From positions 1 to 7,584 of the forward strand of contig CALEDJ010000066.1 of assembly GCA_937951485.1 (NCBI GenBank): a stretch of 7,584 nt of DNA. Reading direction: 5' to 3'. The notes beneath the pieces were generated by a model that was not told where the DNA came from, searched no databases, and saw only the letters and a program-made list of their open reading frames with translations. Position numbers and translations under genes: made by a program. The stretch is from an uncultured bacterium. GTDB taxonomy: Bacteria > Hydrogenedentota > Hydrogenedentia > Hydrogenedentales > CAILVY01. Positions 1,257 to 7,463 of this stretch are shown here, piece after piece. Every line of letters starts with the position of its first letter. Positions within the stretch are counted from its first letter, which is position 1.

Positions 1257-2705
1257 ATGATGACACGAATCACACGCCGGGGATTTCTGCAAAGCGCATC
1301 CACCGGGATGGCGTACGCCGCGCTTGCGGGCACGGCGCAGCGCGCGGACGGCGTCGCGCCGCGTCACAATGTCGTGGTGCTGATGTCCGACGAGCACAAC
1401 CCGAAATACACCTCGCTCCACGGGCATCCGCTGCTGGAAACGCCGAACCTGGAGCGGCTCGCCGCGCGCGGCGTGCTTTTCGAGAACGGGTATTGTCCGT
1501 CGCCGTTGTGCCTGCCCAGCCGCAGCGCGTTCATGAGCGGGCGCCGTGTGCACGACATCCAGTGCTACAACAACTGCAACGCAATTCCGCATGAGTATCC
1601 CGCGTATGGGAACGTACTTCGCGAACAGGGCGTCCATACGGTGCATGCGGGCAAGACCGACGTGTATCGCCCCACGGCGGAATTGGGCTTTTCGGAAATG
1701 ATCCGCGCCCATGACCGCACGCCGCCCGGCGACTTGAACATCCGGCGCGATCCGCTCGCGGTGCGCGAGGGCGACGGAAAGCGCCGCGCACAAGGCTGGG
1801 GCCCCCGTGAAAACGCCTGGGCGGGCGACCGGGCGACAGCGGATGCATCGCTGGCGTGGCTGCGTGAACGCGGCCCTGCGACCCAGCCCTTCACGCTGTG
1901 CGTGAATATCATCGCGCCGCACTTCCCGCATTATGCGACGCCGGACCTGTGGCAGCGCTATGCCGCCGGGGCGGACCTGCCGGCCCACGGCCCGGATGAG
2001 GCATCGGCAAAACATCCCTATGCGCTGGACCTGCGCCGGCATTTTGAAACCGACACCTTCACGGAAGAACAGATTCGTGGCCTGCGCCGGGGCTATCTCG
2101 GCTGCGTGGCCTTTGTGGACGGCGTGATCGGGCGTTTTCTCGATGCGCTGGACGCGACCGGCCTCGCGGACAACACGGTCTTCATCTACGCGTCGGACCA
2201 CGGCGAGATGCTTGGCAAGTTCGGCATGTGGTGGAAGTGTTCGCTCTATGAAGACTCGGCGCGCGTGCCCATCCTTGCCGCGGGTCCGGGCTTTGATCGC
2301 GGACGCCGCGTCCGCACCCCGGTGGATCTGCACGACGTGCAGGCCGCGATCTTCGCGGCGACGCAGACGCAACGCCCGGCGGAATGGGTCGGCGCGCCGT
2401 TGCAGGCGTTGCAGCATGCCCAGGAAGATCGCGTCCTCTTCACGGAATACCACGGCCACGGCGTGCGCGGCAGCGGCTACTGCATCCGGCGCGGCGAATG
2501 GAAACTGATCTGGTGCGCCGAAGCCCCGCATCTGTTGTTCAACCTCGCCGAGGACCCGGAGGAATTGAACAACCTCGCGAAGAAAGCGCCCGATGTGTTC
2601 CGCGAACTGGAGGCGTGTCTCTACGCGGTGTGCGATCCCGTCAAGGAAAATGCGCGCGCCGCTGCGTTCATCGCACGCCAACTCGCCGCCGCGGCTTCCG
2701 CGTGA
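1257..2705 (+). CDS. Tat-exported type I sulfatase (formylglycine-dependent)
   Basis: Hydrolyses a sulfate ester; the substrate cannot be read from sequence. Residues 1-30 form a twin-arginine signal (TRRGFLQ, then an Ala-rich segment), so the protein should be exported folded. The core starts at NVVVLMSDEHN, with Asp45 and Glu46 in the metal-site position. The sulfatase signature is CLPSRSAFMSG at 85-95: Cys85 is the residue converted to formylglycine and Arg89 its partner. Further conserved points are GK133, APH222, SDHGE at 313-317 and the lysine of GMWWK327. The 482-residue length is normal for the family. The start is either ATG 1257 or the adjacent ATG 1260; GGAG at 1248-1251 is 5 or 8 bases away, so 1260 is the better fit. 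The core resembles choline-sulfatase-like members, but the GKTDVY segment differs from their usual GKMHF, so I give no substrate. The neighbouring GH9 remnant suggests a polysaccharide-use locus. A formylglycine-generating enzyme or anSME is needed from elsewhere. No plus-strand terminator with a T-run follows. Confidence 0.93.
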   Translation: MMTRITRRGFLQSASTGMAYAALAGTAQRADGVAPRHNVVVLMSDEHNPKYTSLHGHPLLETPNLERLAARGVLFENGYCPSPLCLPSRSAFMSGRRVHDIQCYNNCNAIPHEYPAYGNVLREQGVHTVHAGKTDVYRPTAELGFSEMIRAHDRTPPGDLNIRRDPLAVREGDGKRRAQGWGPRENAWAGDRATADASLAWLRERGPATQPFTLCVNIIAPHFPHYATPDLWQRYAAGADLPAHGPDEASAKHPYALDLRRHFETDTFTEEQIRGLRRGYLGCVAFVDGVIGRFLDALDATGLADNTVFIYASDHGEMLGKFGMWWKCSLYEDSARVPILAAGPGFDRGRRVRTPVDLHDVQAAIFAATQTQRPAEWVGAPLQALQHAQEDRVLFTEYHGHGVRGSGYCIRRGEWKLIWCAEAPHLLFNLAEDPEELNNLAKKAPDVFRELEACLYAVCDPVKENARAAAFIARQLAAAASA

Positions 2706-2714
2706 CCGTGCGCC

Positions 2715-2750
2715 AAGAATAAAAGCGTCATAACCAAGGGGTCATGACGC
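2715..2750 (-). terminator. Intrinsic terminator of RNA copy A
   Basis: Minus-strand hairpin: GCGTCAT (2725-2731) pairs with ATGACGC (2744-2750). An A·C mismatch and 3 more pairs follow, closed by a 4-base loop. The T-rich tail TTTTATTCTT occupies 2724-2715. On the plus strand nothing T-rich follows the hairpin, so it works as an intrinsic terminator only in the minus direction. Confidence 0.7.
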
Positions 2751-2847
2751 ACTCAAGGGGGTAAGCGTATGAGACGAGTCGCCGGAAGATGGTGTTGGGA
2801 TTGACACCCCGGCGTTCCTTTCGGATAGCCTTGTCTCATCCTCTTAC
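2715..2847 (-). ncRNA. Candidate structured small RNA, copy A
   Basis: Proposed RNA of about 130 nt with unknown function. In minus order: P1 5' strand GTAAG-AGG-ATGAGAC (2847-2833), a joining stretch with a small UCC-GAAA-GGA hairpin, P2 CGCCGG (2814-2809), P3 GGTGT (2808-2804), 8-nt loop CAATCCCA, P3' ACACC (2795-2791), a 5-nt bulge, P2' CCGGCG (2785-2780), P1' GTCTCAT-ACG-CTTAC (2775-2761), C-rich linker CCCCTTGAGT, then the terminator. P1 is 5 bp plus 7 bp around a 3x3 internal loop. The σ28-like promoter at 2853-2880 would start transcription about where P1 begins. Copy B at 3040-3213 keeps the same plan with compensating base changes. No gene lies downstream on this strand within 1.8 kb, so a leader or riboswitch is unlikely. 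I do not recognise it as a known RNA family. It could instead be a structured dispersed repeat. Confidence 0.6.
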
Positions 2848-2852
2848 GCACT

Positions 2853-2880
2853 CTATCGGCAATCCGCCCCAGAAACTTTA
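2853..2880 (-). promoter_or_regulatory. σ28 (FliA/WhiG)-like promoter of RNA copy A
   Basis: On the minus strand TAAAGTTT (2880-2873), 12 bases, GCCGATAG (2860-2853). The established FliA consensus is TAAAGTTT-N11-GCCGATAA, so the -35 is perfect, the -10 matches 7 of 8, and the spacer is one base long. The predicted start at about 2846 falls at the first base pair of P1. No flagellar or sigma gene is in the window, so the sigma factor is inferred from the motif alone. Confidence 0.5.
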
Positions 2881-2893
2881 ACGCGACGTACGT

Positions 2894-3030
2894 GCAGGCT
2901 TTAACCTGAAAAAGTTCTGGAGTCCAGTCTTCAGCCTGCAGTGGTCTTTTGGATTTACTTCCCAGGACGCAGGCTGAAGCCTGTACTCCAGAACGAGGGA
3001 CGCAGGCTGAAGTCTGTACTCCAGAACGAG
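2894..3030. repeat. REP-like cluster built on CAGGCTGAAGCCTG
   Basis: Two direct copies of a 32-base unit lie at 2966-2997 and 2999-3030 (period 33, one difference at 2980 versus 3013); the unit begins GACGCAGGCTGAAG and ends CTCCAGAACGAG. An inverted, slightly diverged copy at 2915-2940 matches 23 of 26 bases of the unit's 2969-2994 part, so the two can form a long hairpin with a 28-base loop. A fourth degenerate half (CAGGCTTTAACCTG) is at 2894-2907. Each core is itself a small palindrome (CAGGC-TGAA-GCCTG). This layout is typical of REP/BIME-type dispersed repeats. The cluster lies exactly between the two RNA copies and is non-coding in all frames I would trust. Confidence 0.8.
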
Positions 3031-3039
3031 TGATCCATG

Positions 3040-3073
3040 AAAAAGAAAACGCCATAACAGAACTGTCATGGCG
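3040..3073 (-). terminator. Intrinsic terminator of RNA copy B (and probably of the rtcB operon)
   Basis: Minus-strand hairpin: CGCCAT (3050-3055) pairs with ATGGCG (3068-3073). An A·C mismatch and ACA/TGT follow, with loop 3060-3063. The tail TTTTCTTTTT runs from 3049 to 3040. It is the first strong terminator after rtcB, 171 bases beyond the rtcB stop, so it probably ends both the operon mRNA and the small RNA. Confidence 0.8.
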
Positions 3074-3167
3074 CCTCTCATGGGAGGAAAGACTACAGGC
3101 GAAGCGCCGGTCGCGTTGGTGCTGGGACGGGCACCCCGGCGGTTCAATAGTCTTTCTACAATTTTTA

Positions 3168-3204
3168 TGACATCCGTGTCGGTTGACGCCTTGACCTCCG
3201 TGTC
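3168..3204. repeat. Direct repeat pair in the copy B leader
   Basis: TGACATCCGTGTC (3168-3180) and TGACCTCCGTGTC (3192-3204) match in 12 of 13 bases and are spaced 24 bases apart. They lie just downstream of the σ28-like promoter, inside the part of copy B that copy A lacks. This could be a protein-binding site or the scar of a local duplication. Confidence 0.55.
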
Positions 3205-3219
3205 TTGGCTGTACGGGAT

Positions 3220-3246
3220 TTATCGGCAGAAATACGGCGGGCTTTA
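3220..3246 (-). promoter_or_regulatory. σ28 (FliA/WhiG)-like promoter of RNA copy B
   Basis: On the minus strand TAAAGCCC (3246-3239), exactly 11 bases, GCCGATAA (3227-3220). Against the FliA consensus TAAAGTTT-N11-GCCGATAA, the -10 matches 8 of 8, the spacer is exact, and the -35 matches 5 of 8, keeping TAAAG. The -35 begins on the TAA stop codon of rtcB. TGCCGATA occurs only twice in the window, here and in the promoter of copy A. Confidence 0.55.
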
Positions 3247-4644
3247 ATCTTCGGGGCGTTCGCCGGCGGGCGCCATCTTGACCAGTTTCGGGTGGAACCG
3301 CGCCACCGGCGCGACCAGGTCCGCCTGGGCCGCCATGACTTCCTCGATGTCTTTGTAGACCATGGGCGCTTCGTCCAGCCCGGCGGTCATGACGGTGATC
3401 CCGCGCGCATCGAGCAGGGTGCGTGCCTCGCGCCAATGCAGCGTTTTTTTGGCTTGGCTGCGGCTGATGCGGCGGCCCGCGCCGTGGGCCGCGGACCGCA
3501 GCGACTCCGCATTTCCCAGCCCGCGCACGATGTAGGCGGGGCTGGCCATCGAGCCGGGGATGATACCGATCACGCCTTCATCTGCGGGCGTTGCGCCTTT
3601 GCGGTGCACGATCAGCGTTTCGCCGTCATATATTTCTTTCCACGCGAAGTTATGGTGGTTCTCGATGTCGAGGAAGACCTCTGCGCCAAGATGGCGCGCG
3701 ATATGGCGGTGGATCAACTCATGGTTCGCGGCGGCGTATCGCCCCATGAGTTGCATGGCGGCCCAGTATTCGCGGCCCTCATGCCGGTCGAGATCGAGCC
3801 AGGCGAGGTGGCGCAGTTCGGAAGGCAGGTCGCGGTGTTGCTGCATGGCGACTTTGCTATAATACTCGCACACAAGCGCGCCCGTGCCCCGGCTGCCGCT
3901 ATGGCTCATGAGCGCGAGGTAATGGCCGGGCGGGACGCCCAGCCCCTCGTCAAAAACCTCCAGGATGCCGAACTCGACGAAGTGGTTGCCGCTACCGCTC
4001 GTGCCGAGTTGCGCCCACGCCTTGTCCTTGTGTTCGCGCGTGACTGGTGAGACCGACCAGTCGAGGTCCATGACCTCATGCCTGCGGCGCACCTTGAACT
4101 CCGCGCCGACACCGAAGCGGGTCTCCGTTTCGATGGCGCGCTTGAGGCGGTCCAGGTCGTTGCGCAGCGTTTCCGGCGGCAAATCGAGCGCGGTAAGTTT
4201 CATGCGGCATGCGATATCCACGCCCACGGCGTAGGGGATGACCGCGTTGCGCACGGCGAGCACGCCGCCGATGGGCAGGCCGTAGCCGACATGCGCGTCG
4301 GGCATCAGCGCGCCCCGCACCGACACCGGCAACGCGCATGCGTTGCGCATCTGCTCGACGGACTTGGGATCGAGGTCCGTCCCCCATTGTCGCCACGGCG
4401 CGCCGCCGCCCGGCGACAACGCTGCGCAAGATGCCGGCGCGGCGCCGCCCGCGAGCAGCGCCGCCAGCGCGCCGAATTGCGGATGTTGCCGGAACGGCGC
4501 GGGGTTGCGCGCAATCATGCGCAGCATCTTGCGGATTTCACGCGCTTTCATGCCGCCTTGCGCGGCGGCCCGGGCGGCCGCGAGTGCGGCCTCCATCGGC
4601 GCGCCCCGCGCAATGCCCAGTTGAAGCAGTTCTTTTTCTTTCAC
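3244..4644 (-). CDS. rtcB: RNA-splicing ligase RtcB, long form
   Basis: GTP- and Mn-dependent RNA ligase that joins a 2',3'-cyclic phosphate (or 3'-phosphate) end to a 5'-OH, used in tRNA and rRNA repair. The family motifs appear in order: MPDAHVGYGLPIGG (114-127), GVDIACRM with metal ligands Asp143 and Cys146, GSGNHF with His221, SHSGSRG with His248, ENHHNFAWKE (328-337), HRKGATPA, GIIPGSM, and HGAGR with His387 as the predicted guanylylated residue. At 466 residues it exceeds the roughly 408-residue E. coli type because of a helical extension of about 80 residues before the PWRQWG start of the core. The C-terminus ends in GERPED, with no terminal Lys-Gly as in archaeal RtcB, although nearby Lys453 and Lys456 remain. 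The start is GTG with GGAG 8 bases upstream. The 24-base gap to the σ54 regulator implies co-transcription. No archease or RtcA gene is visible. Confidence 0.95.
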   Translation of the reverse strand: MKEKELLQLGIARGAPMEAALAAARAAAQGGMKAREIRKMLRMIARNPAPFRQHPQFGALAALLAGGAAPASCAALSPGGGAPWRQWGTDLDPKSVEQMRNACALPVSVRGALMPDAHVGYGLPIGGVLAVRNAVIPYAVGVDIACRMKLTALDLPPETLRNDLDRLKRAIETETRFGVGAEFKVRRRHEVMDLDWSVSPVTREHKDKAWAQLGTSGSGNHFVEFGILEVFDEGLGVPPGHYLALMSHSGSRGTGALVCEYYSKVAMQQHRDLPSELRHLAWLDLDRHEGREYWAAMQLMGRYAAANHELIHRHIARHLGAEVFLDIENHHNFAWKEIYDGETLIVHRKGATPADEGVIGIIPGSMASPAYIVRGLGNAESLRSAAHGAGRRISRSQAKKTLHWREARTLLDARGITVMTAGLDEAPMVYKDIEEVMAAQADLVAPVARFHPKLVKMAPAGERPED

Positions 4645-4668: not shown

Positions 4669-6039
4669 TCAATCCTGGACATCGTGGCGGTCAATGGCGT
4701 GTTTTTTCAAGCGGTATTGCAGGGTTTTGTAACTCAACCCCAGCAGTTCGGCGGCCTCCTTGATGCGGCCGCCGCTACGGGTGATCGCCTGGCGGATGAG
4801 GTCTTCCTCTAATTCTTCGAGCACCAGGCCCCCGGGCGGCAGCGCGAACGCGCCGGAAACCGGCGTGGGTTCGCGGAGTTTTTCCGGCAGGTCCTCGACG
4901 GTGACGGGCCGTCCCTCGGACAGCACGAACAACTGCTCCAGGGTGTGCTCCAACTCGCGGACATTGCCGGGCCAGCGGTAGCGGCGAAAGGCTTCGATCA
5001 CATCGGCCCCGACCGGCGGTGCGGGGATGCCGAGTTTCTTTGCCAGTTTCTCGCGGAAGTGGCCGACCAGCAGCGGCAGGTCCTGCATGCGCGCGCGGAG
5101 CGGCGGCAGTTCGATAACCAGCACTTCGAGACGGAAGTAGAGGTCTTCGCGGAATGTGCCTTCTTCCACCGCTTTCTTGAGGTTGCGGTTGGTGGCGACG
5201 ATGGTGCGGACGTTGACCTGACGGGTCTTGGCGGAACCGACGCGCTCGACCACGCCGTCCTGCAATACGCGCAAAAGTTTCGCCTGGCTTTCGAGGCGCA
5301 TGTCGCCAATCTCATCGAGGAAAATGGTGCCGCCGTCGGCGATCTCGAATTTCCCGGCCCGGCTGGTTTCCGCGCCGGTGAACGCGCCCTTTTCGTGGCC
5401 GAAGAGTTCGCTTTCGACGAGGTTGTCGGGGATGGCGGCGCAGTTGACCACGATGAACGGCTTGTTTTTGCGCGGCCCCTCGAAATGGATATGGCGCGCG
5501 ATGAGTTCCTTGCCCGTACCCGATTCGCCGAAGATAAGCACGGTGCTCGCGACGCGGACGGCGCGCCGCACGCGCTCGAAGACAGCCTGCATCGCCTGGC
5601 TCTCGCCGATGATGTTGCCCAGCGCAACGCCGTCGGAGACCAGTTCGCTCAGGCGCAGGTTGCGGCGGCGCAGGTCGCCACGCTCCAGGCTGCGGCCGAT
5701 CACGTGCAGGAGTTCTTCCTTGTCGAAGGGCTTTTCCAGATAGTCGGCGGCCCCTTCCTTCATCGCGGCGACCGCCGTCCTGATGGTGGCGTGGGCGGTC
5801 ATGACGACAACTTCGAGGTCGGGGCGCAGGCGCTTGGCCCGGCGCAGAAGTTCCAGCCCGTCCATACCGGGCATCTTCATGTCCGTCAGGAGCAGGTCGA
5901 AATCCTCCTCGCGCAATGCGTCGAGGGCTTCCTCCCCGGATGCGACCGCCAGCGTCGGGTATCCGGCAAGGTCCAGGATGTCCGCGATGATGTCACGCTG
6001 CGTCTGATCGTCTTCGGTGATGAGGATGCGTTGGTTCAT
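4669..6039 (-). CDS. NtrC-family σ54-dependent response regulator
   Basis: Activator of σ54 promoters controlled by phosphorylation. Receiver domain at 1-120: acidic pair Asp10/Asp11, phospho-acceptor Asp53 (LTDMKMPG), Thr81 and Lys103 (KPF). AAA+ domain at about 143-370: Walker A GESGTGKE (171-178), σ54-contact loop GAFTGA (218-223), Walker B TIFLDEIGD (Asp242, Glu243), arginine-finger segment FREDLYFRL, and WPGNVREL (356-363). A Fis-type helix-turn-helix occupies about 424-448 (GRIKEAAELLGLSYKTLQYRL). All residues needed for phosphorylation, ATP hydrolysis and σ54 contact are present, and the 456-residue length is typical. The ATG overlaps the kinase stop as ATGA, so the two are translationally coupled and are probably cognate. 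It looks like a ZraR/AtoC/HydG-type regulator, but the specific signal and target promoters cannot be told; I found no good σ54 site in the window. Confidence 0.95.
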   Translation of the reverse strand: MNQRILITEDDQTQRDIIADILDLAGYPTLAVASGEEALDALREEDFDLLLTDMKMPGMDGLELLRRAKRLRPDLEVVVMTAHATIRTAVAAMKEGAADYLEKPFDKEELLHVIGRSLERGDLRRRNLRLSELVSDGVALGNIIGESQAMQAVFERVRRAVRVASTVLIFGESGTGKELIARHIHFEGPRKNKPFIVVNCAAIPDNLVESELFGHEKGAFTGAETSRAGKFEIADGGTIFLDEIGDMRLESQAKLLRVLQDGVVERVGSAKTRQVNVRTIVATNRNLKKAVEEGTFREDLYFRLEVLVIELPPLRARMQDLPLLVGHFREKLAKKLGIPAPPVGADVIEAFRRYRWPGNVRELEHTLEQLFVLSEGRPVTVEDLPEKLREPTPVSGAFALPPGGLVLEELEEDLIRQAITRSGGRIKEAAELLGLSYKTLQYRLKKHAIDRHDVQD

Positions 6040-7463
6040 GGCGCTTTCGTTTTCTCCAGCGGCATCGTGATGAGCACCTGGCAGCCCTGTCCGGGGGCGC
6101 TGGTGAACTCGATGCGGCCGCCGTGTTCTTCAATGATGCCGCGCGTGATGGACATGCCCAGGCCCGTGCCGCCGGGTTTCGTCGTGAAATAAGGGTCAAA
6201 CACGCGGTCCGCGATCTCCTTCGTGAGGCCGGGGCCGTCGTCGCGGATTTCCACCTCGCACGCGCTGTCGGTGATGCGCGAGAAAAGCCGGACGCGGCCC
6301 CCCGGCGGGCTGGCCTCCAGCGCGTTCAGCAGCACGTTGAGGATCGCGCGTTTCCAGTGTTTGGGGTCAATCATCAGGCGCGCGTCGCCCGCGCGCAACT
6401 CGGCAATCAGCCGCAACTGCCGGTCCTCGGCTTCCTGGCGAAACAACTGCACACACTCCTCCAGCAGCGCGTCCACGCGGTGCGGTTCGAGGTGCAGTTC
6501 CGTCTCCTTTGCCAACGACAGGAAACTCGACACGATGCCTTCCAGTCGGTCCACCTCCTGCCGGATGGTGTGCAGGGGCTTCGCGGCGCGACCGTCGCTG
6601 TCTTCGCCGATCGTGTCCAGGGCGTGGCTCGCCAGCAATTTGATCGCGTTGAGCGGGTTGCGCACGTCGTGCGCGACCCCCGCCGCGAGGTTGCCCAGCG
6701 CCGAGAGCCGCTGCGCCTGCCGCAATTTTGCCTCCACCAGTTCCTTCTCCCGCAGCGATTGCACCATCCGGTTGAAGGTTTCCTCCAGTGCGAGGATTTC
6801 GCCTGTCGCGCCCCGCGTGCTGACCGGACGCAGGTCGCCTGCCGAGATCGCGGCACAGGTTGCCGACAGCCGGCTCAGCGGGTGCAGCGCCCGCGCAATG
6901 AAATAGACCATCAGCCCCAGCGTCAGCAGAAACAGAACGACGAGCGCGGCCACGGCGCGGTGGGTGAACGCCCGCAGAATCTCCACCTGCGGCACGATGG
7001 TCACCGTGGCTGTGAGCAGCAGATGCCGGTCGCCGATGCGCACCGGCACACGCGCCACGCGGGTCAGGCGCCCCCCGCCCCTGGGTTCGATGGTGAACGA
7101 GGCGTCGCCGATCTCGCCGTTGTACGGCTGAATCTCAATTTCGAAACCACGGTGGAGGTCCATCATCTTTTTTTCCAGGTCGCCGTAGTCAATATCCGGT
7201 GTTTCCTCGAATTGCAGCGTGATGCTCTCGGCGATCTCGCTGGTCTGCGCCTCCATCTCGCGGACCGCCTCGATGAAAAAATACCGCGTGATCATCGCCG
7301 CAGACCCGAACAGGCACAACAACAGCACCACGCACAACAAAATCACGCGAAAATACAGCGAATCCCGCCAGCGCACCCGCGCCGGCGCCTGCCCCGCAAT
7401 GGATTCTTCATGCTGTCGTTTCGCCATATGCCAAACCCCGTGACATCGCTCCTGCGGTGTCAC
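6036..7463 (-). CDS. Membrane sensor histidine kinase (NtrB/ZraS-like)
   Basis: Senses an unknown extracytoplasmic signal and phosphorylates the regulator encoded next to it. In GTG-start numbering: transmembrane helix at about 38-60, external domain at about 61-165, second helix at 168-190, HAMP linker at 190-240, HisKA domain with phospho-acceptor His265 in GVAHDVRNPLNAI, and HATPase domain with N box NVLLNALEAS (376-385), G1 DDGPGL (408-413), F box FDPYFTTK and G2 GGTGLGMS (431-438). There is no PAS domain between HAMP and HisKA. The external domain is about 100 residues and shows no zinc-binding His/Cys cluster of the ZraS kind. Start choice: GTG 7463 overlaps the upstream stop as GTGA, matching the coupling style of this operon, but lacks a clear ribosome site. 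ATG 7427 (463 residues) has GGGG 8 bases upstream and is an equal alternative. The 3' end overlaps the regulator by 4 bases. Confidence 0.93.
   Translation of the reverse strand: MTPQERCHGVWHMAKRQHEESIAGQAPARVRWRDSLYFRVILLCVVLLLCLFGSAAMITRYFFIEAVREMEAQTSEIAESITLQFEETPDIDYGDLEKKMMDLHRGFEIEIQPYNGEIGDASFTIEPRGGGRLTRVARVPVRIGDRHLLLTATVTIVPQVEILRAFTHRAVAALVVLFLLTLGLMVYFIARALHPLSRLSATCAAISAGDLRPVSTRGATGEILALEETFNRMVQSLREKELVEAKLRQAQRLSALGNLAAGVAHDVRNPLNAIKLLASHALDTIGEDSDGRAAKPLHTIRQEVDRLEGIVSSFLSLAKETELHLEPHRVDALLEECVQLFRQEAEDRQLRLIAELRAGDARLMIDPKHWKRAILNVLLNALEASPPGGRVRLFSRITDSACEVEIRDDGPGLTKEIADRVFDPYFTTKPGGTGLGMSITRGIIEEHGGRIEFTSAPGQGCQVLITMPLEKTKAP

Follow-up and report, generated by a model that had tools for sequence, protein, structure and literature searches.

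Tandem small RNAs with sigma28-type promoters in Candidatus Hydrogenedentota, one of them a probable CsrA decoy

Introduction

What are the two structured elements that lie between a sulfatase gene (1257-2705, plus strand) and rtcB (3244-4644, minus strand) in a 7,584-nucleotide stretch of DNA from an uncultured bacterium? This stretch, referred to below as the window, was assigned to Candidatus Hydrogenedentota by its best RtcB matches. An earlier note had described both elements as paralogous structured RNAs on the minus strand, of a family that it did not recognise. Here we consider how they are built, what would transcribe them, how widely they recur and what they may do.

Structure and genomic setting of the two RNAs

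Both RNAs sit in the rtcB-sulfatase intergenic region, on the minus strand. RNA A (type A, 2715..2847) is about 130 nt long and RNA B (type B, 3040..3213) about 174 nt, with 5′ ends taken from the promoters described below. Their folds were more stable than those of dinucleotide shuffles, with z-scores of -4.4 for RNA A with its terminator and -5.5 for the RNA B core (none of 200 shuffles equally stable in either case). Full-length RNA B had a z-score of -4.2. Together with the recovery of B by a model built from type A only (see below), these values bear out the proposal of two paralogous structured RNAs.

The minus-strand sequence showed the layout that had been proposed, common to A and B: P1, P2 (CGCCGG/CCGGCG), P3, an 8-nt loop ending in UCCCA, a C-rich linker and an intrinsic terminator. 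In RNA A, the inner helix of P1 pairs ATGAGAC (2833-2839) with GTCTCAT (2769-2775; span 2769..2839), and P2 and P3 (GGTGT/ACACC) occupy 2780..2814, closing on the apical loop CAATCCCA (2796-2803). The unpaired C-rich linker CCCCCTTGAG (2752..2761), which is anti-Shine-Dalgarno-like, precedes the terminator (2720..2750, stem 2725-2750 plus T tail). In RNA B, P1 pairs GAAAGACTA (3148-3156) with TAGTCTTTC (3087-3095; span 3087..3156), P2 and P3 (GGTGC/GCACC) occupy 3105..3141, and the apical loop CCGTCCCA lies at 3123-3130. Its C-rich linker TCCTCCCATGAG (3077..3088) is likewise anti-Shine-Dalgarno-like and is followed by the terminator (3040..3074, stem 3050-3074 plus T tail).

Two details of the earlier description needed correction. 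The A.C mismatch noted in the terminators belongs to the plus strand; an RNA read from the minus strand has a G.U wobble there and a stem that pairs throughout, which favours transcription of the minus strand. The limit of the B core at 3156 is not the 5′ end, as two more hairpins (3169-3209) and a promoter (3221-3246) lie beyond it. Neither the promoters nor these hairpins had been noticed before.

A structured element followed by a terminator, directly downstream of rtcB, could be a cis-acting leader (a riboswitch or attenuator) or part of the rtcB 3′ UTR. We regard this as very improbable, since A and B each have a promoter of their own, homologues lie beside other genes, and no riboswitch match was found in Rfam. 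Gene order ruled out the riboswitch or attenuator form, which would have to precede a gene in its own orientation: 3′ of A there is no minus-strand gene but a convergent one, that of the sulfatase, and 3′ of B there is RNA A. No tRNA or tmRNA was identified in the window. Immediately upstream of rtcB, an NtrC-type sigma54 regulator and a histidine kinase are encoded on the minus strand (4669-7463); this pair could control flagella or RNA repair.

Promoters

Upstream of RNA A, the minus strand carries TAAAGTTT-N12-GCCGATA (2854..2880; expected 0.00 times in window shuffles), and upstream of RNA B, TAAAGCCC-N11-GCCGATA (3221..3246), which overlaps the end of rtcB. Both fit the pattern TAAAG-N14/15-GCCGATA, which we take to be the flagellar sigma28 (FliA) consensus. 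The same arrangement, TAAAGTTT-N11/12-GCCGATAA or a close variant, was found upstream of homologues in other genomes.

A search of the whole 4.5 Mb genome for TAAAG-N13-16-GCCGATA gave nine sites, and its reversed control gave one. Besides the promoters of A and B, the nine comprise seven sites that all lie ahead of flagellar genes: two flagellin genes (Pfam Flagellin_N, 6e-35 and 9e-34), flgK, fliD (FliD_N, 4e-18), two flgM genes (FlgM, 8e-11 and 3e-8), and an EF-hand gene upstream of flgN (FlgN, 2e-5, below the curated cut-off). The flgK call was made mainly by eye from the sequence, its Flg_bb_rod match being weak and below the Pfam cut-off. FliA scored above its curated cut-off in the host genome and in 45 of the 68 genomes of the phylum. 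The sequence features expected of sigma28-dependent sRNAs, a correctly placed FliA-type promoter and fliA in the same genome, were thus present for both RNAs, and their identification as free-standing sRNAs driven by sigma28 is well supported by sequence.

Distribution and covariation of the family

Searching with the core motif GCCGGGGTGY-NNN-TCCCARCACC brought up clear homologues elsewhere in the order. The earlier note had pointed out that P1 is unrelated in sequence between A and B and pairs in both, and the same held among relatives, whose P1 sequences differ and still fold. P2 and P3 covary and the 8-nt loop retains UCCCA. The linker takes the form CUUACCUCC-NUGAG, with CUUACCUCCUUGAG as the counterpart of the RNA A linker, and is conserved both in the type A alignment and in the family. 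The terminator stem retains GGCGCCAUGAC...GUUAUGGCG.

In the type A alignment (8 sequences), double-sided changes were found at 10 of 27 pairs. The covariation score was 0.325, compared with 0.160 in shuffles. Compensatory changes affected the inner helix of P1 (helix 1) as well as P2 and P3 (helices 3 and 4), the terminator being helix 5. The type B alignment (12 sequences) had double-sided changes at 6 of 26 pairs, three of them among the five pairs of P3, and scored 0.233 against 0.160; here the terminator is helix 4, and P1 and P2, which are shifted by at least one column between members, were left unscored. None of 500 shuffles reached the observed score for either type, although some of these figures depend on the MAFFT alignments. 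Selection on an RNA fold, the explanation preferred from the outset over chance, is what this covariation indicates, and relatives were found to keep the pairing whose loss would have told against it.

A covariance model of type A sequences only (R1), in line with the search of related genomes that had been suggested, detected both window RNAs, A with an E-value of 3e-33 and B with one of 4e-12; the resemblance of A and B comes partly from the terminator common to both. Of the 68 genomes in the phylum the model matched 33, and 25 of these had not contributed to its training. Judged by sequence and predicted fold, A and B are members of a single RNA family with representatives across the candidate phylum Hydrogenedentota. 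Rfam 15 (cmscan on the window and six homologous loci) returned nothing above the gathering threshold, the known Csr/Rsm sRNAs included, and relaxed thresholds added only matches at chance level or below the cut-off. The family that went unrecognised at first reading is thus without a match there as well.

The position downstream of rtcB is correct for this window and is incidental to the family, as homologues adjoin unrelated genes and the core motif had no credible match at 80 other rtcB loci. Enterobacterial rtcB operons carry bacterial Y RNA. This identity, suggested by the neighbouring gene, was dropped as the homologues are not linked to rtcB.

In several genomes, two or three of these sRNAs stand in tandem, B first, then a third type (C), then A. 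Arrays of B and C (G016) and of B, C and A (G021, G026, G034 and G037) were found. Type C sRNAs, located between B and A or after B (G021 L121, G034 L119, G026 L176, G037 L126, G016 L125), have a sigma28 promoter, two CsrA hairpins and, in most, a hairpin of the ACAGGGUGG type whose loop is AUCCC. Their terminator is distinct (AAACGCG...CGCGUUU in most). Near the array of G026, a sub-threshold Rfam match to the Acido-Lenti-1 RNA was obtained (L176, 1556-1600, minus strand; 34.1 bits, cut-off 37). Four longer members of about 240-280 nt (L168, L185, L186 and L187) carry several UCCC-loop hairpins in series, and their first CsrA hairpin is the variant GAGGCACGGAGGCUAAGG.

Between A and B, at 2914..3030, lie units of a 33-bp palindromic repeat, GGACGCAGGCTGAAGCCTGTACTCCAGAACGAG, which are not part of either RNA. 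There are two direct units and one inverted unit, REP-like in character, and they occupy the spot where some relatives have the type C sRNA. The presence of a dispersed palindrome at this place could suggest that A and B are themselves decayed or selfish elements, mobile repeats that keep their palindromes for their own spread. However, only the 33-bp repeat is dispersed, with dozens of other places in the genome, and the A and B sequences occur at this locus (two copies) and nowhere else in the host genome. The covariation, with promoters and hairpins preserved, and a distribution that tracks fliA and csrA also speak against a mobile origin, a concern raised in the earlier note that we now find scarcely credible.

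CsrA-type hairpins of RNA B

RNA B begins with two hairpins, 24 nt apart, that resemble CsrA binding sites. Hairpin 1 (GCC-AA-GACACGGAGGUC-AA-GGC; 3188..3209, core 3193-3204, minus strand) consists of an outer three-pair stem, tandem G.A pairs and an inner GAC/GUC stem. Hairpin 2 (GACACGGAUGUC; 3169..3180, minus strand) has a GAC/GUC stem that was invariant in 51 distinct homologues. In full-length B, the minimum-energy fold breaks hairpin 1, whereas the centroid retains it. The SELEX consensus for CsrA is RUACARGGAUGU, with ACA and GGA at 100% (PMC7652899), and both hairpins match this high-affinity consensus exactly. The 12-mer consensus GACANGGANGTC occurred exactly twice in the window, both times in B (expected 0.01), and there were nine sites of the GACACGGANGTC form in the whole genome versus four for the reversed pattern. 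RNA A was examined for CsrA-type motifs and had none.

The hairpins are conserved across the phylum. A pattern combining the sigma28 promoter with one CsrA site matched 72 sites in 38 of the 68 genomes; its reversed form matched 4. By a hand count of the fetched sites, at least 54 sRNAs in 36 genomes retain both hairpins; about 10 further sites are mRNA leaders. Type B RNAs open with two copies of GACANGGANGUC, located 19-20 nt past the -10 element in 43 of these 54 sRNAs, and the spacing between the two hairpins was 22-26 nt in 45 of the 54. The outer stem of hairpin 1 showed compensatory changes among 48 distinct homologues (GC to AU, CG to UA and CG to GC). These changes, and those at the first inner pair, are not ones for which the search pattern could have selected.

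Outside the phylum, none of 392 Planctomycetota genomes had the two-hairpin pattern and 2 of 247 Desulfobacterota genomes did, once in a flagellin mRNA leader and once in a sequence resembling an mRNA leader, neither being an sRNA of the B kind. This survey covered Planctomycetota and Desulfobacterota, so the family may be wider. One locus, L238 (G625, Desulfobacterota), is a flagellin leader with a sigma28-like promoter, a GGCCGACAGGGAAGUCGGCC hairpin and ACAAGGAGGU over the Shine-Dalgarno site, and thus a two-site leader of CsrA type outside Hydrogenedentota.

An intramolecular switch, in which ACCUCC of the linker would pair with GGAGGU of hairpin 1, was considered and rejected, as the linker is unchanged where hairpin 1 reads GGAUGU.

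CsrA, FliW and flagellin leaders

In the host genome, csrA (G000:C8; E 5.9e-25) lies immediately downstream of fliW, and its product retains the equivalents of E. coli L4, R6 and R44. Two marks of Csr-family RNAs were therefore found together, multiple (A/U)CANGGANG(U/A) motifs in the hairpin loops of B and a CsrA with its RNA-binding residues in the same genome. It is very likely, as far as sequence can indicate, that CsrA binds RNA B.

FliW was found in 46 of the 68 genomes. The RNA pattern tracked fliA (33 of 38 RNA genomes; Fisher p 8e-5) and csrA (30/34; p 7e-6), both p values being calculated with phylogeny not factored in. Four genomes had the RNA and no detected csrA, three of them being 60-83% complete. 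In family f10, fliA was present in 2 of 17 genomes, and exactly those two had the RNA.

Both flagellin leaders of the host genome contain ACGGA hairpins, and the Shine-Dalgarno sites are covered by UCACGGAGGA (flagellin 1) and UUCACGGAGGAA (flagellin 2). The same arrangement of a CsrA site over the Shine-Dalgarno sequence is known from hag of B. subtilis (PMC7652899). In Campylobacter, titration of CsrA involves, besides FliW, a flagellin leader that bears two GGA hexaloops (PMC4894983). The 5′ domain of B looks like a flagellin leader detached from its gene.

Elsewhere in the phylum, a sigma28-type promoter precedes the gene of a small, conserved protein rich in Cys (MTVQCCVCKKV..., with a further C-x-x-C and no Pfam match), and the Shine-Dalgarno site of this gene lies under a CsrA-type hairpin, e.g. 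GGACAAGGAGGUCC (loci L154, L158, L140, L160, L170, L182, L194, L195, L152 and L197). The protein is a candidate for a new CsrA-controlled flagellar protein.

Proposed function and relation to known systems

We consider it probable that B is a sigma28-driven CsrA decoy and that A and the 3′ module shared by both RNAs act by base-pairing, with transcription, CsrA binding, antagonism and pairing all read from the features described above. Once the hook is finished and FlgM exported, sigma28 would be freed, and its RNA polymerase would make A and B alongside the late flagellar genes and flagellin mRNA. The two hairpins of B would imitate the two-site flagellin leader and sequester a CsrA dimer, so that CsrA is probably mopped up by B when the flagellar motor is complete. 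CsrA repression of flagellin mRNA and of further late flagellar messages would then be lifted, alongside the action of the protein antagonist FliW. The sign of this effect, antagonism, is our inference. With two sites, few compared with CsrB, B would need to be abundant to titrate CsrA.

The 3′ half common to A and B, comprising the UCCC-loop hairpin, the unpaired anti-Shine-Dalgarno linker of CUUACCUCC type and the terminator, is probably a second functional module. Its folded structure is conserved beyond the needs of a pure decoy, which counts against the decoy reading taken alone, and a second function is to be expected from the conserved UCCC loop and linker. This module would most likely pair with G-rich ribosome binding sites. 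As A lacks CsrA hairpins, it would act through the 3′ module alone. Both A and the shared 3′ half of B probably base-pair with mRNAs.

Taken further, such pairing might be the whole function: A and B would be sigma28-dependent base-pairing sRNAs, and CsrA on B would be a chaperone or stabiliser for pairing by the linker or UCCC loop rather than a protein being sequestered. Apart from the CsrA hairpins, no parts are as well conserved as the unpaired CUUACCUCC-NUGAG linker and the apical UCCC loops; these also occur in A, which has no CsrA site, and the long family members repeat the UCCC-loop hairpins. However, the duplexes predicted between linkers or loops and seven flagellar leaders had energies no better than shuffles, with one weak exception (the linker of B with one of the flgM leaders, z about -2), and the two-hairpin geometry fits decoys and flagellin leaders. 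We therefore think this alternative unlikely, and the decoy with a pairing module remains our preferred reading.

The decoy principle (CsrB) and sigma28-dependent sRNAs are each already known separately. Like CsrB/CsrC and RsmX/Y/Z of Gammaproteobacteria, B would be a free-standing sRNA with GGA in hairpin loops, a terminator and CsrA in the genome. Unlike that group, in which transcription is activated by a BarA-UvrY or GacS-GacA type system, it has only two CsrA hairpins, a sigma28 promoter and no Rfam match; furthermore, csrA is paired with fliW in this phylum, the folded 3′ half is conserved, and there is a sister RNA, A, without a CsrA site. E. coli McaS and GadY are base-pairing sRNAs that also bind CsrA via at least two GGA motifs (PMC7652899), and B resembles them in its two GGA sites and probable base-pairing module. 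They differ in fold and phylum, no sequence relation to B was seen, and the sigma28-type promoter is family-wide here. The flaA leader of Campylobacter jejuni (PMC4894983) similarly has two adjacent GGA hairpins and acts late in flagellar assembly with FliW, but it is part of a coding mRNA whereas B is a separate sRNA. Flagellar sigma28 control is shared with the paralogous Campylobacter sRNAs CjNC1 and CjNC4 (PMC4626219) and with E. coli UhpU, MotR, FliX and FlgO, which derive from mRNA UTRs (PMC10578931). Both groups are described as base-pairing and not as CsrA decoys.

Restraint of CsrA is known to operate through decoy sRNAs in Gammaproteobacteria or through the protein FliW in other motile bacteria. 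According to a 2020 review, it remained to be determined if any species combines FliW and sRNAs in the control of CsrA (PMC7652899). In the open-access literature we found no CsrA decoy described as driven by sigma28, no decoy sRNA from a bacterium with FliW and no work on sRNAs in Hydrogenedentota. The present family supplies specific RNAs that can be tested, in a lineage where FliW and candidate decoy sRNAs occur side by side, and adds a broadly conserved RNA family to Hydrogenedentota. Should the decoy reading be true, a CsrA decoy would stand directly under the flagellar checkpoint sigma factor. More tentatively, and with the odds slightly against so specific a scheme, the tandem sigma28 sRNAs might have a double role throughout the phylum, as decoys and as antisense RNAs devoted to the flagellar checkpoint: they would serve as a second, RNA-based CsrA antagonist beside FliW, coupling hook completion to CsrA release, while their C-rich module represses other mRNAs at the ribosome binding site.
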